This document shows, piece by piece, positions 5,828 through 39,609 of a DNA stretch of 64,000 nt. Numbering within the stretch: the stretch's first letter is position 1; each line of letters begins with the position of its first letter. This stretch comes from Rheinheimera sp. D18 (GTDB lineage: Bacteria > Pseudomonadota > Gammaproteobacteria > Enterobacterales > Alteromonadaceae), in contig NZ_CP037745.1 in NCBI RefSeq assembly GCF_004345025.1, positions 620,001 to 684,000 on the forward strand, read 5' to 3'. A program made the translations under genes and the position numbers. The notes under the pieces were generated by a model that ran no database searches, was not told the DNA's origin, and saw only the letters and a list, made by a program, of their open reading frames with translations.

Positions 5828-6508
5828 TTAGCTTGCCGGATCTACTATGCCGTTAATACTCGTGTTTTTACGAAACCAACCGGCAATACTGTAGCGGGTG
5901 TCTATAGCTGGCAAAACTTCATGTGGAAAACGCTCGCTTTCAAATAACACTAGGCTGCCTGCGGTGGGTAATAACTTATCTATTAACACGTTATGTTCAT
6001 TGTATAGTGCCAGTTCACCACCTGCTGTCACCGAGTTTAGATAACTGACTGTAGTAAGCACTCGGTTAGAGCGACCGCTAAAGGCATCAATATGCTTTTG
6101 GTAATAATCGCCTTGACGATAACGAGCGAAATGACATTCAAAATCAAATAAGCCTAAAAAGCAGCGTCGATTAAATGCTTGTTGTAGTTGTGCCATTAAT
6201 TGCAAATAGGCTTGTTGTGCTGCGCTACGCCCATTAAACCACTGGGTTGCATCGCGGCGAATTTGCTTGTTAAGTTGATGGTCGTTTTTTCGGCCAATAC
6301 CCGCCGGCGTTAGCTCTGCATCAAATTGAGCTTCATGCAACAAGTCGGCATTTAATTGTGGCTGTAAAAAGTTAGGTAACCAAACCCAACCGTGCTGATA
6401 AAACGCGGCAATAATTGCATCGAAATTAAGCTGGTCGTTGAGTAAAACCGCAGAGTGCATAGCCGTGCTCAATAAAGTAAACAGCGCTATTGTCGCTGAA
6501 AAACTCAT
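5828..6508 (-). CDS. 2OG-Fe(II) oxygenase, prolyl-4-hydroxylase-like
   Basis: A 226-residue soluble oxygenase. The iron-binding triad fits: His and Asp in KHIDAFSG, and the distal His in RFPHEVLP, followed by an Arg (DTRYSIAGWF) that would hold 2-oxoglutarate. The YLN and GGELALY stretches are typical of the P4Hc fold. The first ~16 residues look like a weak signal or an over-long start; Met17 (6460) is an alternative and neither has a clear ribosome site. It sits 10 bp upstream of the Cys-rich gene on the same strand and could be the first gene of the metal operon, though no metal role is known for the family. Substrate unknown. Confidence 0.8.
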   Translation of the reverse strand: MSFSATIALFTLLSTAMHSAVLLNDQLNFDAIIAAFYQHGWVWLPNFLQPQLNADLLHEAQFDAELTPAGIGRKNDHQLNKQIRRDATQWFNGRSAAQQAYLQLMAQLQQAFNRRCFLGLFDFECHFARYRQGDYYQKHIDAFSGRSNRVLTTVSYLNSVTAGGELALYNEHNVLIDKLLPTAGSLVLFESERFPHEVLPAIDTRYSIAGWFRKNTSINGIVDPAS

Positions 6509-12906: not shown

Positions 12907-13886
12907 GTATTTTATTTTCGGGTCGAGTAAGTAGTGGCGCAACAACCCGCAAAGTCGGTGTTGGTCGGCGTTTTTTCATGTTTTGGGTTAACCATGTGCG
13001 CCAAGCATTATTTAGCCTTGGTGAGCTGTGGCGTACGCCCTCGGCGTCTATTCTTACCATTGGTGTACTTGGCGTTAGCCTTACTTTACCGGCAACACTG
13101 CATCTGCTGGTTAAAAACGTACAACAGGTCAGTGACAGCTTTACTCAAGCGGCTGAAATAAGTTTATTTATTCGAGAGGGGGTTAGCGACACACAAATCA
13201 GTAGCCTGCATAAAATCCTGCAGGCAGATCAAGATATTGCTCGGGTTACACACATTAGTAAACAACAGGCCTTAGCTGAATTTGCTCAAGTAAGCGGTTT
13301 TGGCTCGGCGTTAAATTACCTAACCGATAACCCGCTGCCTGATGTGCTGCTAATACTACCAAAAAACACCAGTGCCGATAGTGCTCGGCAGTTGATGGCG
13401 CGATTGTCTAAAGAACGTATTGTCGAATTTGGCAAGCTGGACATTGATTGGCTAACTCGGCTTGATGCTATTGTTAGCCTATTGCGCCAAGCTGTACTTA
13501 TTATTGCGGTGTTATTGCTCGGTGCAGTATTGCTGATTATAGGTAATACCATCCGTCTGTCTATTATGAGTAAAAAAGACGAAATTGAAGTAATGAAGCT
13601 GGTTGGCGCAACCGACGCCTTTATTCAGCGGCCATTCTTGTATAGCGGCATATGGTATGGCGTATTTGGCGGTTTATTAGCTTTTTTAATCGTCGAAACC
13701 ATGTTGTGGTGGCTGCAAGGTGCTATTGTTAGTGTTACGTCGTTATATGAAAGTGAATTTCACTTAATGGCGCTGAGTATGGCTGAATTTTTAAGTCTGA
13801 TGTTACTTGCAATACTGCTTGGCCTAAGTGGCTCTTATTTATCGGTGCGCCGTCATATAAGCGCTATTGAACCTACCGGCCCTTAA
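12903..13886 (+). CDS. ftsX: Cell division ABC permease FtsX
   Basis: The membrane partner of FtsE. It has 327 residues, with a cytoplasmic N-terminal stretch, a first membrane helix (ASILTIGVLGVSLTLPATL), a large periplasmic loop to about residue 185, and three C-terminal helices; NTIRLSIMSKKDEIEVMKLVGA is the conserved FtsX cytoplasmic loop. The periplasmic loop would recruit the hydrolase activator EnvC. It is last in the operon; rpoH follows after a gap with its own operator. Confidence 0.96.
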   Translation: MSILFSGRVSSGATTRKVGVGRRFFMFWVNHVRQALFSLGELWRTPSASILTIGVLGVSLTLPATLHLLVKNVQQVSDSFTQAAEISLFIREGVSDTQISSLHKILQADQDIARVTHISKQQALAEFAQVSGFGSALNYLTDNPLPDVLLILPKNTSADSARQLMARLSKERIVEFGKLDIDWLTRLDAIVSLLRQAVLIIAVLLLGAVLLIIGNTIRLSIMSKKDEIEVMKLVGATDAFIQRPFLYSGIWYGVFGGLLAFLIVETMLWWLQGAIVSVTSLYESEFHLMALSMAEFLSLMLLAILLGLSGSYLSVRRHISAIEPTGP

Positions 13887-13950
13887 TAGCATTTCATTAT
13901 TACATTCTATTTTTTAGATTAAGCAGTTCTAAAGTTTGATGAAACTTAAA

Positions 13951-13977
13951 TTAGCACTCTATGTCAAAGAGTGCTAA
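13951..13977. promoter_or_regulatory. CIRCE operator (HrcA binding site) upstream of rpoH
   Basis: TTAGCACTC (13951-13959), nine spacer bases, GAGTGCTAA (13969-13977): a letter-perfect match to the CIRCE consensus bound by the HrcA heat-shock repressor. It lies 34 bases before the rpoH start chosen here. HrcA itself is encoded at 28291. I found no second CIRCE in the window, including in front of dnaK or hrcA. Confidence 0.93.
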
Positions 13978-14011
13978 TATCGATGCAATTAGTTTAGGAC
14001 AGGACGCAAAA

Positions 14012-14863
14012 ATGAGCGATACAGCAGAAATGATCTCCTTACCCGTAGCAACCAGCAGCAGCTTGGAAGCGTACACTCATGCTGTCAGTTCCATTGCCAT
14101 GTTAACTGCAGATGCAGAGCGCAGCTTGGCTGAACGCTTACACCAAAACGGTGATTTAGAAGCTGCACGTCAGCTAATTATGTCGCACTTGCGCTTTGTA
14201 GTGCATATTGCTCGCAGCTATTCAGGTTATGGTTTACCGGTAAGTGATTTAATTCAAGAAGGTAATATTGGTCTGATGAAAGCGGTAAAACGCTTTGATC
14301 CAAATGTTGGCGTGCGCTTAGTATCATTTGCTGTGCACTGGATAAAAGCCGAGATCCATGAGTACGTGCTGAAAAACTGGCGCATAGTTAAAATTGCGAC
14401 CACTAAAGCGCAACGCAAATTGTTTTTTAACCTGCGTAAAGCGAAAAAGCATTTAGGCTGGTTTAATCAAGAAGAAGTGAAAAACGTTGCTGAGTCGTTA
14501 GGTGTTGCGGAGCATGAAGTGCGTGAGATGGAAGCACGTATGAGCAACTACGACATGCCGTTTGATGCTCCAGATGAAAACGAAGAAGCGGCTTACACTG
14601 CGCCAGTGTATTATTTGGAAGATAAAGCATCAGACTTAGCAAACCGTATTGAAGAAGACCAGTGGGATACCGCAGCAGTTGACCGTCTGCAAGCCGCAAT
14701 GCGCACGCTTGATGAGCGTAGTCAGGATATTGTGCGAGCGCGTTGGTTAGACAATAACAAGTTAACCCTGCAAGAGTTGGCTGACCGTTATAGTGTTTCT
14801 GCGGAACGCGTGCGTCAGTTAGAAAAAAATGCGATGAAAAAATTACAGGCTGTACTGAGTTAG
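14012..14863 (+). CDS. rpoH: RNA polymerase heat-shock sigma factor (sigma-32)
   Basis: RpoH directs RNA polymerase to heat-shock promoters. I start it at 14012 (283 aa; the E. coli protein has 284). This ATG has an AGGAC-type ribosome site and the family's normal N-terminus, while the upstream ATG at 13961 lies inside the CIRCE spacer. Landmarks: [33 protein letters not shown] (region 2), the RpoH box stretch [10 protein letters not shown], and the region 4 helix-turn-helix near [21 protein letters not shown]. It is monocistronic with a strong terminator. Control by HrcA is inferred from the operator. Confidence 0.97.
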
Positions 14864-28232: not shown

Positions 28233-28260
28233 CTTGAATTATAAGCCGATGCCCCCATAT
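28233..28260 (+). promoter_or_regulatory. Sigma-32 heat-shock promoter of hrcA-grpE
   Basis: -35 CTTGAAT (28233-28239), 13-bp spacer, -10 CCCCATAT (28253-28260). The -10 is a full match to CCCCATNT and the -35 differs from CTTGAAA by one base. It lies 30 bases before hrcA. Confidence 0.85.
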
Positions 28261-28290: not shown

Positions 28291-29322
28291 ATGACGTTAA
28301 CCCTTAGTAGGCCTGAGCTAATTTTAAAGTTGATCGTAGAGCAGTATCTGTTAGACGGCCAGCCAGTGTCATCTAAGTTATTGGCAGATAATACTCAACT
28401 AGCAGTGAGCTCGGCTACGGTTCGAAATACTATGATGGCACTTGAGCAACAGGGCTTAATTCGCTCGCCACATACTTCGGCAGGGCGAATTCCTACCTCT
28501 GCCGGTATTCGATTATTTATCGACAAAATGTTGCAACTGCAACCTTTAACTAGCTTTTGGAACAATGAGCTTCAGCGCAAATTAGTGCCGCAGTTGCCGG
28601 TATCGTTGCTATGCCAACAGGCGGGGCAACTGTTAACTAACTTAACTGGGTTTGTCGCTATTGTTAGTGCACCAAAGGCCGATGGTCGTATTGTGCGGCA
28701 AATTGATTTAGTGCGTCTTGCAGCCGATAGATTATTATTAGTTGTAATAGATGAAGACGGTGATATTTTGCACCGTGTGTTGCACTGTGAAATGGCAATT
28801 GATAACAGTACATTAAGTAAAGTATTGTGTTTGCTTAATGCGGCATTAGGTGGTGGCGGCCAGTGGCAGGATGGCATTGAGCGGCTCGGCACTATAATGC
28901 GTAGCGAAACAGCGTTGTGTCAGCAGTTGTTACAAAAAGTGCTGGGGCAACTAAGTTTAGATGAGTTACAGCAACATCAGCCGTTAGTTTATGGCCAACA
29001 TCAGTTATTATTGACGCCAGAATACCAGCAAAATTCTGCTTTGCAGCAGGTTATGCAAATGCTAGAGCGGCCAGATGGTTTAATGCAGTTGTTAGATACC
29101 GTGACACATGATGACCAGCCCAAATTGTTGTTGGGTAAAGAGTCAGGTTTTGTTGAGCTAAGTAATGTTAGCGTTATTGTGCGGCGCTATCAAACTCAGC
29201 CAAAACGCTTGATTGCGTTATTAGGCCCAAGGCGAATGAATTACGCCCGTTTAATTCCATTAGTTGACGCTTGTGCTCGCCAGTTAAATTTAAACTTGAA
29301 TCGGCGCCAAGCATCCCCATAA
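28291..29322 (+). CDS. hrcA: Heat-inducible transcription repressor HrcA
   Basis: HrcA binds CIRCE operators and represses chaperone genes; in other bacteria its folding depends on GroEL. It has 343 residues: an N-terminal winged helix (LADNTQLAVSSATVRNTMMALEQ, then the SPHTSAGRIPTSAGIRLFID hallmark) and a GAF-like dimerisation domain. It is encoded directly upstream of grpE (30 bp) behind a sigma-32 promoter. The only CIRCE in the window is in front of rpoH. HrcA is patchy in gammaproteobacteria, so its presence together with sigma-32 is notable. Confidence 0.96.
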   Translation: MTLTLSRPELILKLIVEQYLLDGQPVSSKLLADNTQLAVSSATVRNTMMALEQQGLIRSPHTSAGRIPTSAGIRLFIDKMLQLQPLTSFWNNELQRKLVPQLPVSLLCQQAGQLLTNLTGFVAIVSAPKADGRIVRQIDLVRLAADRLLLVVIDEDGDILHRVLHCEMAIDNSTLSKVLCLLNAALGGGGQWQDGIERLGTIMRSETALCQQLLQKVLGQLSLDELQQHQPLVYGQHQLLLTPEYQQNSALQQVMQMLERPDGLMQLLDTVTHDDQPKLLLGKESGFVELSNVSVIVRRYQTQPKRLIALLGPRRMNYARLIPLVDACARQLNLNLNRRQASP

Positions 29323-29352: not shown

Positions 29353-29916
29353 ATGACTGAGCAACAACAGCCAAACGAAAATACCACTGAGCAAGCAAAC
29401 GAGCACGCCGACACTGTAGAGTTATCAGGTGAGCAGGCTGTTATAGCCAAACTTGAAGCCGAGTTAGCCGATGCCAAAGCGCAGTTAACTGAGCAGCAAG
29501 ATCTGATGTTGCGTATTAAAGCTGAATCAGAAAACGTGCGTCGCCGCGCCAGTATGGACGTAGAAAAGGCGCATAAATTTGCGCTAGAAAAATTTGCCGG
29601 TGAGCTATTATCCGTAGCCGATAATTTAGAGCGGGCGTTAGAATTTATTAACCGTGAAGACGAAGCGGTAAGAGGTTTAGCTGAAGGTGTTGATTTAACA
29701 CTAAAAGGTTTCTTAGATACCATCGCTAAATTTGGTGTTAACCAAGTTAGCCCGTTAGGTCAGCCGTTTAACCCTGACTTACACGAAGCTATGAGTATTC
29801 AGCCATCGGCAGACGTGGCGCCAAATACCGTTACCTTTGTTATGCAAAAAGGCTATGAGTTAAATGGTCGCTTGTTACGTCCGGCTATGGTTGGTGTTTC
29901 TAAAGCTCCCGAATAG
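29353..29916 (+). CDS. grpE: Nucleotide exchange factor GrpE
   Basis: GrpE releases ADP from DnaK. 187 residues: an acidic Gln/Glu-rich N-terminus, a long helix ([20 protein letters not shown]) and the signature [13 protein letters not shown], then [14 protein letters not shown]. The GGGAG ribosome site precedes two near-adjacent ATGs (29349 and 29353); only the second is in frame. It is the second gene of hrcA-grpE and ends at a strong terminator. Confidence 0.97.
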
Positions 29917-29944
29917 GCTGCGGTGTCACCACTAATATTTTGAT

Positions 29945-29967
29945 AAAACCGGCATCTTGCCGGTTTT
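29945..29967 (+). terminator. Rho-independent terminator of hrcA-grpE
   Basis: AAAACCGGC (29945-29953), ATCTT, GCCGGTTTT (29959-29967), continuing into a T run to 29970. Confidence 0.9.
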
Positions 29968-30060
29968 TTTATGTTAAAACTAACGTATTACTATACCGTG
30001 TAAAAAGTGGCTGATAGCGTGCTTAAGCGACAATATATACAACAAATTCCAGAGGTTTGT

Positions 30061-32796
30061 ATGCCACCGCAGTTTATTCGGGCTGTAAAACAACTTATTC
30101 CAGCAGAACGCTACTTTGACGATCCGATCGCGACACTAGCCTTTGGTACTGATGCCAGTTTTTATCGTTTAATACCTAAATTAGTGCTACGCATTGAAAG
30201 CGAGTCTGAAGTTGTCGCGCTGTTAAAGCTTGCTAATCAATATCAGGTTGCTATTACTTTTCGTGCCGCAGGCACCAGCTTATCCGGCCAAGCGGTAACC
30301 GATTCGGTGTTGTTGGTGCTAGGTGAAAACTGGCAACAGCGCGAAGTGCGCGGTTTAGGTGAGCAAATTCGTTTACAACCCGGAGTTATAGGTGCGCAGG
30401 CCAATAGTGCGCTTAGCAAATTTCAGCGCAAAATTGGCCCAGATCCCGCATCAATCAACAGCTGTAAAGTTGGCGGTATTGTTGCTAATAATGCCAGCGG
30501 TATGTGCTGCGGCACGGCGCAAAATAGTTTTAATACTATCGCGGCAATGCGCATAGTGCTGTTTGACGGCACGGTTTTGGATACCGAAGATGCGCTCAGC
30601 GTGACTGCATTTAAGCAAAGCCATGCCCAGCTATTAAATGATTTGGCATTGCTAGGCGCACAAACTCGCGCTAACACAGTACTGCGTGAAAAAATTCAAC
30701 ATAAATATCGATTAAAAAACACCACGGGCTTTTCATTAAATGCGCTAACAGAGTTTAACGACCCGATAGATATTTTAATGCATTTAATGGTGGGTTCTGA
30801 GGGTTGCCTTGGTTTTATTAGTGCCGTTACCTATAACACCGTGCCGGATTATCCGCATAAAGCCAGCGCTTTACTGGTATTTGAGTCAGTAGAAAGTTGT
30901 TGTCAGGCGGTTAGGATCTTAAAAACGGCTAAGGTGTCAGCGGTTGAATTGCTAGATAGGCGCAGCCTACGCTCAGTTGAACACAAAGAGGGTATGCCAA
31001 GCTGGGTGAAAACCTTATCTGCGAATGCGTGCGCTTTGCTAATTGAAACCACCGCAGCTAGTGCTAGCTTATTGCAACAACAGTTAGCTCAATTAAATAT
31101 AGTAATTCAACAGTTTACACTAGAGCAGCAAGTAAGCTTTAGTACAGATCCGGCAGTATATAACCAGTTGTGGGCTATTCGTAAAGGTACCTTTCCTGCG
31201 GTTGGTGCGGTGCGCAAAACGGGCACTACGGTAATTATTGAAGATGTGACCTTTCCACTAGAAAAACTGGCCGAAGGCGTGTCTAGGCTGCAGCAATTAT
31301 TTGATAAATATTATTACACTGAAGCGATTATTTTTGGTCATGCTTTAGAAGGTAATTTGCATTTTGTTTTTACTCAGGGGTTTGACGACGGTACGCAGGT
31401 TGCGCGGTATGAAGCCTTTATGCAGGAAGTAACCAGTTTGGTAGCTACTGAGTTTGGCGGCTCGTTAAAAGCTGAGCATGGCACGGGTCGTAATATGGCG
31501 CCCTTTGTTGAACTAGAGTGGGGTAGTGACGCTTATCAGCTAATGTGGCAGATAAAGCATTTACTAGACCCGAAACATATTTTAAACCCTGAAGTGGTGT
31601 TAAGTCATAATCCTAGGTTGCATTTGCAAAACTTGAAGCCGCTCCCCCCGACGCATTTTTTAGTTGATAAGTGCATAGAGTGTGGTTTTTGTGAACCAGT
31701 GTGTCCATCGAAAAAACTTAGCTTAACGCCGCGCCAGCGCATCGTAACGCAGCGTGAAATATCACGTTTAAATCGCAGTGGTGATGACCCTAAACGTTTA
31801 GCTGCTTTGCAGCAGGCCTACCAATATCAAGGCAACGATACTTGTGCTGGCTGCGGTATGTGCAGTACTGCATGCCCTGTGGGTATTAATACCGGCGACT
31901 TAACCCGACAACTGCGCGCCGCCAATAATCGGCGCTGGCAGGGTACGGCCACTTTTTTAGCTCGGCATTTTGCTACTGTATCTAGGTTAGCTAAGTTGGG
32001 GCTAACGCTAGGTAAGCTATTTAGCCCACTACTGCCATTTTGGCACTCGGCTATGCCGCAGGCTAATTATGCTAAATTACGCACTCGCGATAATGGCTTA
32101 CAGCCCGTTATTTACCTTGCGGGTTGCTCTGGCCGGGTAATGGCGCCACAAGCAAACAGCAAAGATAGCCGCAGCTTATTGCAGGTTAGTACCGATTTAT
32201 TAGCTAAAGCCGGTTATCAGCTTATTGTACCTGAGGGCATTAATAGTCAGTGCTGTGGTATGCCGTTTCAGTCGAAAGGTCAGTTTGCTGCAGCTAGCCA
32301 AAAACAGCTGCAACTAGAGCAGTGGCTGTTGCAAGCAACCAATAACGGTGAGTTACTGGTGTTTTCGGATACCAGCCCATGCAGTTTAACGCTTAAAGGT
32401 AAGTTAGATGGTCGGTTACAAATTATTGATAGTGTTGATTTTTTATTAAGCAAGGTGTTACCTAAGCTTAATGTTACACCGCTTAACGACGCGGTTGCAC
32501 TGCATGTTAGCTGTAGTGCAAGCCAGTTGGGACAGCAGGATGCGCTGCAAGCGTTACTTAGTGCCTGTAGTAATAATATTGTCGTGCCAGAGGGTATTAG
32601 TTGTTGTGGCTTTGCGGGCGATAAAGGTTTTAACTTACCTAAGCTTAACGCATCGGCATTATCTGGCTTAAAAGCGCAAGTCCAACAATGCGCGCAAGGC
32701 GTATCAACTAGCCGTACCTGCGAAATTGGTTTATCACACCATAGCGGTGTCGAGTATCAGCATATTGTGTATTTGCTTGATAGATGCAGTAGTTAA
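30061..32796 (+). CDS. FAD/Fe-S D-lactate dehydrogenase-like enzyme (GlcD-GlcF type fusion)
   Basis: A 911-residue membrane-associated oxidoreductase. The ATG at 30061 follows AGAGG and begins at the conserved MPPQFIRAV; the GTG at 30007 has no ribosome site. Order of domains: FAD-binding PCMH domain (TFRAAGTSLSGQAV; IVANNASGMCCG), FAD oxidase C-terminal domain with EHGTGRNMAPFVELEWG, two 4Fe-4S motifs (CIECGFCEPVCP and CAGCGMCSTACP), and two CCG domains (CCGMPFQSKG, CCGFAGDKGF). This architecture is that of quinone-linked D-lactate (or 2-hydroxyacid) dehydrogenases feeding the respiratory chain. The substrate is not proved by sequence. It stands alone between terminator and kinase gene. Confidence 0.87.
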   Translation: MPPQFIRAVKQLIPAERYFDDPIATLAFGTDASFYRLIPKLVLRIESESEVVALLKLANQYQVAITFRAAGTSLSGQAVTDSVLLVLGENWQQREVRGLGEQIRLQPGVIGAQANSALSKFQRKIGPDPASINSCKVGGIVANNASGMCCGTAQNSFNTIAAMRIVLFDGTVLDTEDALSVTAFKQSHAQLLNDLALLGAQTRANTVLREKIQHKYRLKNTTGFSLNALTEFNDPIDILMHLMVGSEGCLGFISAVTYNTVPDYPHKASALLVFESVESCCQAVRILKTAKVSAVELLDRRSLRSVEHKEGMPSWVKTLSANACALLIETTAASASLLQQQLAQLNIVIQQFTLEQQVSFSTDPAVYNQLWAIRKGTFPAVGAVRKTGTTVIIEDVTFPLEKLAEGVSRLQQLFDKYYYTEAIIFGHALEGNLHFVFTQGFDDGTQVARYEAFMQEVTSLVATEFGGSLKAEHGTGRNMAPFVELEWGSDAYQLMWQIKHLLDPKHILNPEVVLSHNPRLHLQNLKPLPPTHFLVDKCIECGFCEPVCPSKKLSLTPRQRIVTQREISRLNRSGDDPKRLAALQQAYQYQGNDTCAGCGMCSTACPVGINTGDLTRQLRAANNRRWQGTATFLARHFATVSRLAKLGLTLGKLFSPLLPFWHSAMPQANYAKLRTRDNGLQPVIYLAGCSGRVMAPQANSKDSRSLLQVSTDLLAKAGYQLIVPEGINSQCCGMPFQSKGQFAAASQKQLQLEQWLLQATNNGELLVFSDTSPCSLTLKGKLDGRLQIIDSVDFLLSKVLPKLNVTPLNDAVALHVSCSASQLGQQDALQALLSACSNNIVVPEGISCCGFAGDKGFNLPKLNASALSGLKAQVQQCAQGVSTSRTCEIGLSHHSGVEYQHIVYLLDRCSS

Positions 32797-32907
32797 GTAT
32801 ATTTACTGCAATATTTTAGCTAAGGTTAAAGCTATATTGGGTTACTTGTCCCAGTATTGTTGATTGCAATTATTTATCGCAACTATTTAGTGCAACTTAG
32901 GAGTCGC

Positions 32908-35310
32908 ATGCAACCGCCGCTAACACCCATAAATGAAAGTGATCGCCTTGAGGCACTTTATGCGACAGGTTTGCTTGATACACCAAGTGAGTTACGTTTT
33001 GATCGCTTAACCCAACTGGTTCAGCTGTGTTTAGGCAGCGACATTGTTTTAGTGTCGTTAATAGATACAGCACGGCAATGGTTTAAATCAAAGCAGGGCG
33101 TAGCCGTTTGTGAAACGCATCGCGATATTTCTTTTTGCGGCCATGCGGTGCTTGCAGACGATATTTTTGAAGTTACTGATGCCAGTCTTGATCCGCGCTT
33201 TACCGACAATCCGCTAGTAACCGATGCGCCCTTTATCCGTTTTTATGCCGGTGCACCACTTACTGTGCAAGGTGAGCGTATTGGCACACTATGTATTATC
33301 GATGCTAAGCCACGTCAGCTAAATGCCAAAGAGCGCCAAATTTTACGTAAGTTTGCGGATGCGGTAGAGCAAGAAATTATCGACCGCCAACAAGAATATG
33401 CCGAAGTAGCGCTAAACGCCAGTCGCGATCAATTTGAAAGTTTAGTGGCTAACATACCCGGAATTACTTATCGCTGTGACGCCGATGAACATTGGACTAT
33501 GCGCTACATGAGTAGCAGCATTGACCCGTTATCGGGTTATCCAGCCAGTGACTTTATTGCTAACTCGGTGCGCAGCTATAGCAGTGTCATACACCCCGAT
33601 GACACGGCACGTGTAGAAACGGTAGTAGCCGACGCGGTGTTGCACCGGCACGGTTGGATACTTCAGTATCGAGTGATACACAAAGATGGCCGTGTGATAT
33701 GGGTAGAAGAGCGCGGTAAAGCTGGCTATGACAGCAATAACAACGTGCGCTATCTAGATGGTTTTATTCTGGATATCAGTGAAGAGAAAAAGCTAAAACA
33801 TCAACTTATTACGTTAACTTCACAGTTGCCGGGCGCGGTGTATCAGTACCAACAGTGGCCAGATGGTCGGGTCGCGTTTCCTTACGCTAGCGCGGCTATT
33901 AGGTCTATTTATGGCCTTACACCAGCGCAAGTTAAAGATGATGCCAGTGTTGTCTTTAGTAAAATTTGTAGCGAAGATTTGCCTGCATTAGCCCACAGTA
34001 TAGAACGGTCGCGCCAGCAGTTAACGGTTTGGCAGTGTGAATATCGGCTACGTCGCGACGATGGAGCAATAGCTTGGATACTAGGTAAGGCAAACCCAGA
34101 GCGAATGCTTGATGGCAGTACACTCTGGCACGGCTATATTCAGGATATCACAGAAACAAAACAGCACTATTTACAGTTAGAGCAAGTGAATCAGCAGCTA
34201 CACTTGGCGCAGCAGCGCTTAGATACCGCGAGTGAAAACGCGCTAATTGGCTTTTGGCAGGAGTCCTTAACTCACGATGAAGTGTGGTGGTCGCCGATTA
34301 TTTACCATATTTTAGGTTTTGAGCAGGCCAATACCGTACCTAGCGTGGCATTATTAAGAAGTGTAGTGCACCCGGATGATCGTCAGCTTGTAGCCGAAAG
34401 TGACAACGCAGCCTTAGAAACGGGTACGCAAGATGTAGTGCATCGTATTATTCGTTCTGATGGCAGTATTCGTTGGGTGCATGAATTAGCACGGGTGCTG
34501 ACGAATGCGGATAACGAAGAGCAGTTTCTAATTGGCTCAGTGCAAGACGTAACTGAGCGCATGCAGCTACAGCAGCTGAAGAATGAGTTTATTTCTACGG
34601 TAAGCCATGAGCTAAGAACACCTCTTACTTCGATTAAAGGGGCGCTAAGCCTGTTGAATTCAGGCACCCTTGGCCAGTTGCCAGAAACTATTAGCCGCTT
34701 AATTAATGTCGCCTACAGCAATAGTGATCGCTTATCTCAGCTTATTAACGATCTACTGGATATAGAAAAACTTGCAGCGGGTAAAATGAACTTTGAGCTG
34801 CAAACCGTCAGTCTTTTTGCTGAGCTAGAACATACGGTAATGAATTTACAGCCTTATGCTCATCAGTTTACTGTGCAGTTGCGTTTAGAGCCTATCGCGT
34901 CGGCAATACAAATTACGGTTGATACCTCACGCTTGCAGCAAATACTGACTAACCTGGTATCTAATGCTATAAAGTTTTCGGCTAAAGATGCAGTGGTAAC
35001 ATTAAACGCCACGCCGACAACAGACTCTGTGCGCATTGACATTACAGACACCGGGGTTGGTATTGCGCCAGAGTTTCATACTCGGGTGTTTGAGCGCTTT
35101 GCGCAAGCAGATAGCTCTAATAACCGCCAAACAGGTGGTACCGGTTTGGGTTTGGCCATTTGCAAAGAATTAGTCGAAAAAATGGGTGGGCAAATAGGTT
35201 TTGATTCGGTTTTTGGTGAAGGCTCAACCTTTTATATTATTTTGCCATTGAATAAGCAAAACAATACTAGCAACGTGCTAAGTCGTGTAAATAATGAAAA
35301 CATCAAATAG
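32908..35310 (+). CDS. Soluble GAF-PAS sensor histidine kinase
   Basis: An 800-residue kinase without membrane segments. The ATG at 32908 has AGGAG five bases upstream. Layout: GAF domain (about 10-165; FCGHAVLADDIFEV, APFIRFYAGAPL and GERIGTLCIID are typical), then three PAS/PAC domains (about 175-300, 305-420, 440-555), HisKA with FISTVSHELRTPLTSIKGAL, and HATPase with LVSNAIKFS, DTGVGI, FERFAQ and GTGLGLAICKELV. It has no receiver. The stop overlaps the next gene, an Hpt-REC-REC-GGDEF protein, by 17 bases, so the pair is a likely phosphorelay leading to cyclic di-GMP. Confidence 0.9.
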   Translation: MQPPLTPINESDRLEALYATGLLDTPSELRFDRLTQLVQLCLGSDIVLVSLIDTARQWFKSKQGVAVCETHRDISFCGHAVLADDIFEVTDASLDPRFTDNPLVTDAPFIRFYAGAPLTVQGERIGTLCIIDAKPRQLNAKERQILRKFADAVEQEIIDRQQEYAEVALNASRDQFESLVANIPGITYRCDADEHWTMRYMSSSIDPLSGYPASDFIANSVRSYSSVIHPDDTARVETVVADAVLHRHGWILQYRVIHKDGRVIWVEERGKAGYDSNNNVRYLDGFILDISEEKKLKHQLITLTSQLPGAVYQYQQWPDGRVAFPYASAAIRSIYGLTPAQVKDDASVVFSKICSEDLPALAHSIERSRQQLTVWQCEYRLRRDDGAIAWILGKANPERMLDGSTLWHGYIQDITETKQHYLQLEQVNQQLHLAQQRLDTASENALIGFWQESLTHDEVWWSPIIYHILGFEQANTVPSVALLRSVVHPDDRQLVAESDNAALETGTQDVVHRIIRSDGSIRWVHELARVLTNADNEEQFLIGSVQDVTERMQLQQLKNEFISTVSHELRTPLTSIKGALSLLNSGTLGQLPETISRLINVAYSNSDRLSQLINDLLDIEKLAAGKMNFELQTVSLFAELEHTVMNLQPYAHQFTVQLRLEPIASAIQITVDTSRLQQILTNLVSNAIKFSAKDAVVTLNATPTTDSVRIDITDTGVGIAPEFHTRVFERFAQADSSNNRQTGGTGLGLAICKELVEKMGGQIGFDSVFGEGSTFYIILPLNKQNNTSNVLSRVNNENIK

Positions 35311-36946
35311 CAATAAAGCGGATATCTCGCAGGCTTTTAATAGTGTAAGGCAACGCTTTGCCGAGGGTTTACCGCAACGAGCTGCAGCAATGTTGGCGAC
35401 CGTGCAGCAAAAATCTAGTGACGCAATGTTGCGTGAGATTATTGCTGAGTCGCATAAATTATCAGGTGCCTGTGGCACCTTTGGCTATGCTTTGCTTGGT
35501 GCCATGGCAAGGCAAATTGAACAGCTTGCCCAAGCAATAAAAGCAAAGGCTGAGCAAGAGCAGGAGCAAGCAATACCCGAGCTGATTCATTTAGTGCAAG
35601 AATTTGATATTGAAGCGGCACAAGTTACGGCTGCAATATTGCAGAACACCGCGTCGTCAGAACAGCTGTTGGTCACTAAAAATAGTATTTGGTTGTTATT
35701 AGATAACGTTGCACTAACTGATGAAATTACCGAGCAGTTACACGGGTTTGGTATGCAAGTTGAGTTTTTTACCAATTTTACCAGCTGTGTTAAACGTTTA
35801 ACTAAGGATACGCCACTTATTTTGTTTTCTGCGGTCACCTTAGCCAATGGCGAGTCATTGTTCGAGCAAAAGTTACTGTTAAATATGCTGGTAAAGCAAC
35901 AAGTTCGTTTAATGGTGCTCGCTAAGACTGATAGTTTTGCCACACGTATTCAAGCTGCACAATTACGAGCAGAAGCCTTCTTTTGCTTGCCTTTAGATGT
36001 ACCTGAAATAATTACGCAAATTAGTGAGTTACTCGATTACAGCATTACTAATGCTGGCCGAGTGTTTATTGTTGATGACGATAAATTGCTGGCCGAACAT
36101 CACGCTTTAGTATTGGCCGAAATAGGTATAGAAACGCGAATAAATGCCAATGTTGAGCACATTATTGAAGAGATTATGAGTTTTCAGCCTGACCTAATCT
36201 TGATGGATATGTACATGCCAGATTACTCCGGCGCAGAAATTGCTGGTTTGTTGCGGCAGTATCGTAGTTTAAAGCGTTTGCCGATTGTGTTTCTATCGTC
36301 AGAAATGAATAAGGCACTGCAAATTCGTGCTATGTCGCACGGCGCAGATGACTTTATTACCAAGCCAATTGACGATATTCAATTAGCGCAAGCTATTAAG
36401 GTGCGTTTAGCCCGCAGTTTACAGCTAAAAAACCTGATTGAAAAAGATGGCTTAACCTCGCTGGTAAGGCACGCGGCAATTAAAGATGCAGCAGAAATGG
36501 AGTTTTTGCGGGTTGAGCGTACCGGTAAGCCGTTGGGTATTGTCATGCTAGATATTGACCGTTTTAAAACCGTAAATGATACCTATGGCCATGCTACCGG
36601 CGATTTAGTTATTGCGTCTTTGGCGACGCTATTACGCAAACGTATTCGTAAAACTGATCGTGCAGGGCGTTACGGCGGTGAAGAGTTTCTATTAGTGTTA
36701 CCAGATTGCAATACCGAACAAGCAAAATTGCTAACTGAGCAAATTTTAGCAGCATTTAGTGGGCTCTATTTTAATGCCAAAGATCAGCAATTTAATTGCA
36801 CATTTTCTGCCGGTGTAGTGTCAAGTGGTGATGATAATTTTGCTAACGCCGCGCAAATGATCGCGGCTGCAGATAAGGCGATGTATCAGGCTAAAGAAAG
36901 TGGCCGCAACCGAGTGTTGCACTGGCAGCCGCCAGCAAGTAACTAA
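35294..36946 (+). CDS. Hpt - pseudo-receiver - receiver - GGDEF diguanylate cyclase
   Basis: A 550-residue multidomain regulator. The N-terminal Hpt domain (about 10-110) has the phospho-His in SHKLSGACGTFG. Residues about 125-245 fold like a receiver but lack the phospho-Asp (LILFSAVTL replaces the usual LxLLDxxMP). A full receiver follows (about 255-375: FIVDDD acid pair, LILMDMYMPDYSG phosphosite, LSS, TKP Lys). The GGDEF domain has an active GGEEF and an RKTD inhibitory site exactly five residues before it. It should make cyclic di-GMP under control of the overlapping upstream kinase gene. The signal sensed is unknown. Confidence 0.92.
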   Translation: MKTSNSNKADISQAFNSVRQRFAEGLPQRAAAMLATVQQKSSDAMLREIIAESHKLSGACGTFGYALLGAMARQIEQLAQAIKAKAEQEQEQAIPELIHLVQEFDIEAAQVTAAILQNTASSEQLLVTKNSIWLLLDNVALTDEITEQLHGFGMQVEFFTNFTSCVKRLTKDTPLILFSAVTLANGESLFEQKLLLNMLVKQQVRLMVLAKTDSFATRIQAAQLRAEAFFCLPLDVPEIITQISELLDYSITNAGRVFIVDDDKLLAEHHALVLAEIGIETRINANVEHIIEEIMSFQPDLILMDMYMPDYSGAEIAGLLRQYRSLKRLPIVFLSSEMNKALQIRAMSHGADDFITKPIDDIQLAQAIKVRLARSLQLKNLIEKDGLTSLVRHAAIKDAAEMEFLRVERTGKPLGIVMLDIDRFKTVNDTYGHATGDLVIASLATLLRKRIRKTDRAGRYGGEEFLLVLPDCNTEQAKLLTEQILAAFSGLYFNAKDQQFNCTFSAGVVSSGDDNFANAAQMIAAADKAMYQAKESGRNRVLHWQPPASN

Positions 36947-36965
36947 GGCGGCGCCACGATAGCAA

Positions 36966-37475
36966 TTAAAGCTTATTTAAAATTTCTGCTGGTAAAGCTA
37001 ACTCGTCGTTTTGATTAACACCAACACCGCGGTCTAAGATGTTTTTCGCAATTTGTTTGGCTTCATCTAATGAGTGCATTTGCGCCGTGCCGCACTGGTA
37101 AATGTTTAACTCGGGAATATCGTTCTGGTTGGCAACGTGCAATACGTCATCCATCGCCGCTTGCCATGCTTTGGCTACACGTTGCTCGTCTGGTGTGCCA
37201 ATTAAGCTCATATAAAAACCGGTACGACAGCCCATCGGCGAAATATCAATAATTTCAACATCATTACCGTTTAAATGGTCACGCATAAAGCCAGCAAATA
37301 AGTGCTCTAGTGTATGAATACCTTTCTCAGACAGTATTTCTTCATTTGGTACACAAAAGCGTAAATCGAATACGGTAATAGCATCACCTTTAGGCGTATT
37401 CATTTTCTTCGCCACTCGCACAGCCGGCGCTTTCATAATGGTATGGTCTACGGTAAAGCTGTCTAATAATGGCAT
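36966..37475 (-). CDS. luxS: S-ribosylhomocysteine lyase LuxS
   Basis: LuxS cleaves S-ribosylhomocysteine to homocysteine and DPD, the precursor of autoinducer-2. The ATG at 37475 follows AAGGA and gives 169 residues, the normal length; the longer frame to 37535 has no support. Metal ligands are in HTLEHLFAG and IYQCGT; the other active-site Cys is in GCRTGFY. It is divergent from dnaK, with 226 bp between. Confidence 0.97.
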
Positions 37476-37623
37476 GGTAACAATCCTTAATACGCTTACG
37501 TTAATGGCCGCTATTATAGGCAGTTCAAGCGGCATAAGTTAACTGCTTTTGTAATTTAACGCGTTAAACGCAAGCTAAGACCATAGAATTAGGTCTTAAA
37601 TGAAAAAATTTTATAATAATAAC

Positions 37624-37652
37624 CTTGAATGGATTAGGGCTAATCCCCATTA
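37624..37652 (+). promoter_or_regulatory. Sigma-32 heat-shock promoter of dnaK-dnaJ
   Basis: -35 CTTGAAT (37624-37630), 14-bp spacer, -10 CCCCATTA (37645-37652), 7 of 8 to the consensus. There is no CIRCE in this upstream region. Confidence 0.85.
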
Positions 37653-37701
37653 AGTCTTCAACACAATTTTTAATTGTTCAGATTATAAATGGAGAGCAGT
37701 T

Positions 37702-39609
37702 ATGGGCAGAATCATTGGTATTGACTTAGGTACAACTAACTCATGTGTGGCGGTATTAGACGGCGATAAACCTCGCGTATTAGAAAACGCGGAAGGTACT
37801 CGCACTACGCCATCTATTATTGCGTATGCTGAAGATGGCGAAGTATTAGTTGGCCAGCCAGCAAAACGTCAGGCAGTTACTAACCCTAAAAATACCTTAT
37901 TCGCAATTAAGCGTTTAATTGGTCGTCGTTTTGAAGACGAAGAAGTTCAGCGCGACATTAAAATTATGCCTTACGCAATTGTTAAGGCTGATAATGGTGA
38001 TGCGTGGGTTGAAGTTAAAGGTAAAAAATTAGCTGCACCACAAATTTCAGCTGAAATTTTGAAGAAAATGAAAAAAACCGCTGAAGACTTTTTAGGTGAA
38101 GCGGTAACGGCAGCAGTAATTACTGTTCCGGCCTATTTTAATGATGCACAGCGCCAAGCAACTAAAGACGCTGGCCGCATTGCAGGCTTAGACGTAAAAC
38201 GTATTATTAACGAACCAACAGCTGCAGCACTGGCTTATGGTATGGACAAAAAGAAAGGCGACACCAAGATTGCAGTGTATGACTTGGGTGGTGGTACTTT
38301 CGATATTTCTATCATTGAAATTGATGACGTAGATGGTGAACAAACGTTTGAAGTATTAGCAACCAACGGTGATACGCACTTAGGTGGTGAAGACTTCGAT
38401 AACCGTTTAATCAACTACTTAGTAGAAGAATTCAAAAAAGAGCAGGGCATAGACCTGCGCAATGATCCACTAGCAATGCAGCGTTTAAAAGAGTCTGCGG
38501 AAAAGGCAAAAATTGAATTGTCTTCAGCTTCGCAAACCGAAGTTAACCTGCCGTATATTACGGCCGATGCCTCAGGCCCTAAACACCTGAATATCAAGGT
38601 AACGCGCGCTAAGTTAGAGTCATTGGTTGAAGATTTAGTACAACGCACTATGGAACCGCTAAAACAAGCGTTAAAAGACGCCGGCTTAAGTGTTGGCGAA
38701 ATTAACGACATTATTTTGGTCGGTGGCCAAACACGTATGCCAAAAGTACAGGAAGCAGTAACTGCTTTCTTTGGCAAAGAGCCACGTAAAGACGTTAACG
38801 CCGATGAAGCGGTAGCCGTTGGTGCTGCGATCCAAGGTGCGGTGTTATCGGGTGATGTTAAAGACGTCTTGTTATTAGACGTTACACCATTGTCTTTAGG
38901 CATTGAAACCATGGGTAGCGTAATGACTGCGCTAATTGAGAAAAACACCACGATTCCTACCAAGAAATCGCAGGTATTCTCAACCGCGGAAGATAATCAG
39001 TCTGCCGTAACGATTCACGTGCTGCAGGGTGAGCGTAAGCGTGCGACGGATAACAAATCGTTAGGTCAGTTTAATTTGGAAGGTATTCGTGGTGGTCGTC
39101 GTGGCGAACCGCAAATTGAAGTCACCTTTGACTTAGACGCGGATGGTATTTTGCACGTATCAGCTAAAGATAAAGAAACTGGTAAAGAGCAAAAAATTAC
39201 CATCAAAGCCAACTCTGGTTTGAGCGATGAAGAAATTCAAGCCATGGTACGTGACGCCGAAGTTAACGCTGAAGAAGATAAGAAGTTTGAAGAGTTGGTG
39301 CAAACCCGTAACCAAGCTGATGCCATGGTGCATGCTACGCGTAAACAGTTGGACGAAGTGGGTGACAAGCTAGCCGCAAATGATAAAGCTGCAATTGAAT
39401 CGGCCATTAAAGAGTTAGAGGCCGTATTACAAGGTAGCGATAAGGCAGCAATTGATGAGAAATCTCAGGCGCTGATGCAGGCTGCACAAAAATTGATGGA
39501 AGCGTCTCAAGCAGGTGCACAACAAGGCGGTGACGAAGCAGGCCAACAGGCCGGCGACGATGACGTAGTTGATGCTGAGTTTGAAGAAGTTAAAGACGAC
39601 AAAAAGTAA
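37702..39609 (+). CDS. dnaK: Hsp70 chaperone DnaK
   Basis: The ATP-dependent chaperone that works with DnaJ and GrpE and, in E. coli, hands sigma-32 to FtsH. 635 residues: ATPase domain starting [17 protein letters not shown], phosphate-2 motif [14 protein letters not shown], the hydrophobic linker [15 protein letters not shown], the substrate domain, and a Gly/Gln-rich acidic tail ending EEVKDDKK. The ribosome site GGAGAG precedes the ATG. It is transcribed with dnaJ from a sigma-32 promoter; a palindrome sits between the two genes. Confidence 0.98.

Follow-up and report, generated by a model that had tools for sequence, protein, structure and literature searches.

A predicted HrcA operator overlies promoter-like elements of the sigma-32 gene rpoH in Rheinheimera sp. 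D18

Accounts of bacterial heat shock usually present the repressor HrcA with its operator CIRCE, and the heat-shock sigma factor sigma-32, as circuits that are alternative or parallel, and treat groESL as the constant target of HrcA. In other Gammaproteobacteria the sigma-32 regulon includes dnaK, hrcA-grpE and groES. Sigma-32-type promoters lie at the same three places in the genome analyzed here; what differs is a predicted additional brake on transcription of the sigma-32 gene, rpoH, itself. In E. coli, rpoH has a sigma-E-dependent promoter, P3. A predicted sigma-E-type promoter also precedes rpoH here, in a genome that encodes rpoE-rseA-rseB, but E. coli has no HrcA (it was not among the control genomes with an HrcA match in a profile search), whereas here the predicted HrcA operator lies across the -10 element.

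The closest precedent is Geobacter sulfurreducens, for which a CIRCE at rpoH was predicted by Rodionov et al. 2004 (table 8, PMC545781). According to the accessible part of that paper, the site is a perfect CIRCE a short way upstream of rpoH (position -51) in a genome with HrcA, as in our case, but groESL and hrcA-grpE-dnaK-dnaJ carry CIRCE there too, whereas here rpoH alone does. The HrcA/CIRCE systems at groESL of Caulobacter and C. jejuni have in common with ours the repressor family, the kind of operator and the input from GroE: the accessible text of a review states that GroE keeps Caulobacter HrcA folded (PMC8119881), and that of a second paper that binding by C. jejuni HrcA is enhanced by GroE (PMC8533110). 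Their target is a chaperone operon; here it would be a sigma-factor gene. In the literature covered on HrcA, CIRCE and rpoH together, of which several papers were accessible in part, CIRCE at rpoH was reported in PMC545781 alone; it was not reported in the accessible parts of PMC3135505 and PMC3224663, and HrcA is absent from the text of PMC5343134. Thus HrcA, CIRCE, sigma-32 and sigma-E are each already known, and there is a published precedent for a CIRCE at rpoH. What would be new is an HrcA with rpoH as its single target, an operator placed on a sigma-E-type promoter, and hrcA itself under a sigma-32-type promoter. Because Permina and Gelfand 2003, which reportedly covers beta-, gamma- and epsilon-proteobacteria and is the likeliest place for an earlier report, lies outside the literature covered, a wider distribution of CIRCE at rpoH may already be in print.

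The window, by which we mean the whole 64-kb stretch of DNA analyzed, contains an exact match to the CIRCE pattern TTAGCACTC-N9-GAGTGCTAA at 13951-13977 (Table 1). The initial annotation had described an exact CIRCE 34 bases before rpoH as the only one in the 64 kb, with none at dnaK or hrcA, and all of this was borne out. The match holds over 27 of 27 nt, and 34 nt separate its end from the ATG. With up to three mismatches allowed, there were two CIRCE matches in the window, compared to 0.01 in shuffles; the second (6055-6081) has three mismatches and lies inside a minus-strand ORF. Over the whole genome (3,308,353 bases) the rpoH site was the sole match with fewer than three mismatches, and two more places with three, both within ORFs, were found outside the window. 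A chance origin of the rpoH site was ruled out by the shuffle and reversed-pattern controls. No CIRCE was found upstream of hrcA, dnaK or groES in this genome, where the best alignments had 7, 7 and 8 mismatches.

Table 1. Coordinates of the features discussed, as positions in the window.
Feature	Position	Strand	Description
Upstream block	13911..13934	+	TTTTTAGAATAAnCAGATCTnAAAA, imperfect inverted repeat; from genus alignment
Sigma-E-type -35	13941..13947	+	GAAACTT, 3 nt before CIRCE; consensus GGAACTT
CIRCE operator (predicted)	13951..13977	+	TTAGCACTC-TATGTCAAA-GAGTGCTAA, 9-9-9, 27 nt, 0 mismatches to consensus
Sigma-E-type -10	13964..13968	+	TCAAA, 3' half of CIRCE loop, 16 nt after -35
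Extended -10	13972..13980	+	TGCTAATAT, CIRCE right arm plus TAT
Likely ribosome-binding site of rpoH	14001..14004	+	AGGA, from sequence; conserved in genus alignment
rpoH	14012..14863	+	Sigma-32, 283 aa; TIGR02392 409.5 bits, cut-off 323.1
Sigma-32-type promoter of hrcA-grpE	28233..28258	+	CTTGAAT-N13-CCCCAT; 30/30 genus loci
hrcA	28291..29322	+	Repressor, 343 aa; TIGR00331 240.5 bits, cut-off 197.2
grpE	29353..29916	+	Starts 30 nt behind hrcA
Sigma-32-type promoter of dnaK	37624..37650	+	CTTGAAT-N14-CCCCAT; read in window genome alone
dnaK	37702..39609	+	CIRCE absent upstream

The start of rpoH is an annotation trap. The ORF list begins the gene at an in-frame ATG at 13961, inside the CIRCE loop, but the start is likely at 14012. 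Further upstream, the block at 13911-13934 is conserved across much of the genus and is partly common to neighboring genera; possibly another regulator binds there. We considered it as a sigma-E -10 and rejected this, as no GAACTT -35 was seen before it. A search of a plasmid collection recovered relatives of rpoH, with 60-80% identity, in 64 records.

We found exactly one perfect CIRCE in each of 31 genomes of the genus, all of which encode HrcA. It precedes rpoH in every one (30 fetched loci and genome G030), so that the scan of related rpoH upstream regions proposed with the initial annotation showed the repeat to be conserved. Neither arm departs from the HrcA consensus in any of the 31 genomes, while the loop varies and the flanks have diverged. 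The gap between CIRCE and rpoH was 33 to about 45 nt in the 30 loci, in six of which the rpoH start extrapolated from tblastn is an uncommon start codon. At groES, no CIRCE was found upstream in 30 of the 31 genomes (best 6-9 mismatches), and the same was true of hrcA (best 5-9 mismatches). By the criterion of an upstream CIRCE, then, groES is not in the HrcA regulon and hrcA is not autoregulated in these 30 loci, and hrcA has a sigma-32-type promoter instead.

These data bear on the possibility that weak sites give HrcA other important targets, with rpoH as one of several, which we consider unlikely. In its favor, 21 additional places with two or three mismatches were found in the 31 genomes (our own count). 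This number is close to the 14 obtained with the reversed-pattern control, and therefore no second HrcA target stands out. In the window genome, the one among the 31 in which weak places were looked at individually, all three of the places with three mismatches lie within ORFs. Upstream of 30 groES and 30 hrcA genes of the genus, there was no CIRCE even at four or fewer mismatches.

The product of hrcA is the single HrcA match in the genome (PF01628, 134.7 bits). TIGR00331 covers residues 7-333, and residues 7-157, the DNA-binding part, align with the solved HrcA structure 1stz; profile and alignment together give a winged-helix DNA-binding N-terminus followed by the HrcA C-terminal domain. 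All 30 genus loci have a sigma-32-type promoter before hrcA, ending 31-35 nt before the gene and scoring 11-13 of 13 against the sigma-32 consensus; mononucleotide shuffles of the hrcA upstream regions reached a score of 11 in 9 of 600 cases. Because only 30 nt separate grpE from hrcA, grpE has no upstream region of its own. At groES, the best sigma-32-type match was a CTTGG-type element with CCCCAT, 60-86 nt before the gene, in 28 of 30 genus loci. The window genome's own groES (L172) has a weaker motif, CTTGGTT-N14-CCCCAT (10 of 13, read by eye); there and in locus L168 the best-scoring sigma-32-type match sits further upstream. About 7.8 kb (29916-37702) part hrcA-grpE from dnaK-dnaJ, and this interval includes a gene for a GGDEF response regulator (35294-36946) and, on the minus strand, luxS (36966-37535).

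Beyond the genus, we surveyed 147 genomes of the family. HrcA scored above the cut-off in 25 of them, and CIRCE was present, with at most one mismatch, in 27. All 25 genomes with HrcA had such a CIRCE, compared to 2 of the 122 without (Fisher p 3e-26; G068, with a sub-threshold HrcA match and no CIRCE, was counted as HrcA-negative). In the 25 genomes with HrcA every CIRCE at this threshold adjoins rpoH, with one site per genome except for two in tandem in G140. Of the genomes with CIRCE and no detected HrcA, G137 (95% complete) has the site at rpoH, and G150 (locus L118) has a perfect CIRCE whose neighbors are unrelated hydrolase-like genes rather than heat-shock genes. Overall, rpoH was adjacent in 20 of 21 CIRCE loci fetched from the family outside the genus. 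Seen from rpoH, with one upstream region from each of 76 genomes (G150 not included), those with HrcA all had 0-1 mismatches (25 of 25), and those without had 5-9 (50 of 51, the exception being G137).

The association was also placed on a quick rpoH tree of the family, in which 33 of 88 inner branches are open. The HrcA state changes at least five times on this tree with G137 left out. An independent-pairs test on the tree, which took in G137, yielded three usable pairs on supported branches, two in agreement and one with no difference, and its result was not significant (p 0.5). Rows named Pseudoalteromonas, Idiomarina and Colwellia fall among the family rows on the same tree.

The initial annotation took HrcA/CIRCE and sigma-32 to be parallel systems as a rule, so that a CIRCE at rpoH would be exceptional. 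The Geobacter precedent in the accessible part of PMC545781 and the wider surveys both contradict this. Among 80 diverse rpoH loci, 32 had a CIRCE with up to three mismatches within 400 nt upstream, and 27 of these had 0-1. Of 185 genomes of the class, 131 had CIRCE and 130 HrcA; at one mismatch or fewer, 122 had both, 9 CIRCE only, 8 HrcA only and 46 neither (Fisher p 5e-26). Sites were assigned in 36 of the 131 CIRCE genomes, the window genome apart and among the matches listed, with sites of G190 incomplete and one site of G263 near a contig end left unassigned. Among these matches, the downstream gene was groES in 33 genomes, rpoH in 28 and hrcA in 12; 25 of the 28 genomes with CIRCE at rpoH had one at groES too, and rpoH was the sole target listed in 2 of the 36.

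In a sample of 60 genomes from the phylum, 27 had CIRCE, 23 of them outside the class. CIRCE was found at groES in all 16 of the out-of-class CIRCE genomes from various families. Family f172 contributed seven genomes: in six, CIRCE precedes a sigma-32-type gene, with a further one at groES in three of them, and in the seventh it is confined to groES. In these six (L289-L294) the site at the divergent sigma-32-type gene has 0-1 mismatches, and it is the sole CIRCE at that threshold in three; the one f172 sigma factor checked scored above the NF005143 cut-off and below that of TIGR02392. Given this distribution over class and phylum, a CIRCE in front of rpoH is a widespread and probably ancient arrangement, as judged from its occurrence in sequences. 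The unusual point in the window genome is the missing groES site, which leaves rpoH as the sole target. In this respect the lineage of the window genome is probably the derived one.

The rpoH operator lies on promoter-like elements. The sigma-E consensus is GGAACTT-N16-TCTRA/TCAAA, and GAAACTT-N16-TCAAA in the window scores 11 of 12 against it. In the genus, 21 of 31 sites score at least 10 in the same register as the window: the -35 stands 3 nt ahead of CIRCE, and the loop finishes with TCAAA. This register differs from that of the class; shuffled upstream regions reached the score in 5%. The other 10 sites score lower, and 8 of them have GTAAA in the loop. At other sites in the family the score was reached in 8 of 20 and missed in 12. 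The class was represented by 58 rpoH sites, drawn from the 80 diverse loci and the class survey. In 27 of these, a match of at least 6 of 7 to GGAACTT stops exactly 9 nt short of CIRCE. A score of at least 10 of 12 was reached in 44, and 34 of them have a -10 that begins at CIRCE position 8. The rate was 1.9% when CIRCE was kept and the upstream sequence alone was shuffled, and no such score occurred at 33 groES or 12 hrcA sites of the class. The second element is the extended -10, traced as TAANAT at the edge of the right arm. All 31 genus sites have it, as do 14 of the 23 sites elsewhere in the family and 42 of 58 class rpoH sites; it was seen in 1 of 33 groES and 2 of 12 hrcA sites of the class. 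A sigma-32-type promoter at rpoH, which would give autoregulation, was considered and rejected; the best match was 9 of 13, a score often reached by shuffled hrcA upstream regions.

Control of sigma-32 in E. coli is mostly post-transcriptional. The operator could thus be a relic that HrcA still binds without materially changing rpoH transcription, the main regulation being translational or through protein stability, and HrcA is missing from most of the family (present in 25 of 147 genomes). We regard this as very unlikely. The perfect CIRCE persists in 31 genus genomes despite diverged flanks and is found in every family genome with HrcA that was sampled, which argues for current selection, and the operator covers promoter-like elements. 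It is highly improbable that the repeat acts mainly as an HrcA-independent RNA hairpin in the leader (a thermometer, or for stability or attenuation): a 9-bp stem could form if transcription began upstream, and E. coli rpoH translation is governed by mRNA structure, but we reject this reading because the repeat is gone where hrcA is gone (missing from 50 of 51 HrcA-negative rpoH upstream regions of the family, with rpoH kept) and Rfam gave no match at E ≤1 in 13700-14400, while the arms follow the HrcA consensus throughout the genus as the loop varies, and the predicted promoters overlap the repeat, which therefore would not be transcribed whole from them.

We thus consider it highly likely that the site is a genuine HrcA operator that represses rpoH by covering its predicted promoters, within a feedback loop of GroE and sigma-32. 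Given that the genus keeps CIRCE and that operator and repressor occur together across the family, HrcA is almost certainly at work in this organism. Sigma-32 is the one target that can be recognized, and HrcA very probably controls the sigma-32 gene rather than a single chaperone gene. The initial annotation had placed HrcA upstream of sigma-32 and its whole regulon. Conservation in the genus and co-occurrence in the family support that placement. The promoter-like elements under the operator, together with the sigma-32-type promoter of hrcA, two features absent from that annotation, suggest a feedback loop rather than a one-way cascade.

In such a loop, HrcA on its operator would keep RNA polymerase from two predicted promoters, the sigma-E-type one with its -10 inside the CIRCE loop and the extended -10 promoter built from the right arm. 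Sigma-32 would transcribe hrcA-grpE, dnaK and groESL from their sigma-32-type promoters, and HrcA activated by GroE, an input taken over from other systems, would turn rpoH down and so close the negative feedback. Misfolded protein that titrates GroE, or heat that inactivates HrcA directly, would open rpoH. We hold the chances to be even that the account is right in full: a single-target HrcA occludes a sigma-E promoter at rpoH while sigma-32 drives hrcA and groESL, chaperonin availability in the cytoplasm can veto envelope stress (sigma-E) at the rpoH promoter, and the operator is an old and widespread element of heat-shock regulation in Gammaproteobacteria that outlived the groESL target.

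In this genus the sigma-factor gene alone is left, with no CIRCE at the chaperonin operon; if repression holds, the level of the entire sigma-32 regulon would therefore be set by HrcA. CIRCE at rpoH is common in the class survey and mostly overlies a predicted sigma-E-type promoter, an arrangement by which cytoplasmic and envelope stress are predicted to be integrated directly within a single short DNA segment. This prediction is cheap to test and would apply to the numerous Beta- and Gammaproteobacteria for which control of rpoH has been inferred from E. coli.

Several variants of the arrangement were seen in the family. Four genomes of genus g18, in a clade with Pseudoalteromonas, combine a very divergent HrcA (33-37 bits, compared to 122-185 in other genera) with a perfect CIRCE at rpoH. 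A second, more divergent RpoH-like gene was found in 6 of 59 family genomes (G062, G063, G067, G070, G075 and G078). Two tandem CIRCE-like repeats precede rpoH in L119, L120 and L122, which belong to genera g50 and g35 of one clade; the repeats are spaced about 31-33 nt from start to start, and the second copy has 1-3 mismatches. In the HrcA-negative loci L243, L242 and L253, a half-repeat resembling the CIRCE right arm (CAGTGCTAA, CAGTGCTAT and GAGTGATAG, respectively) lies 30-33 nt upstream of rpoH, as though the arm had survived as a -10 element.
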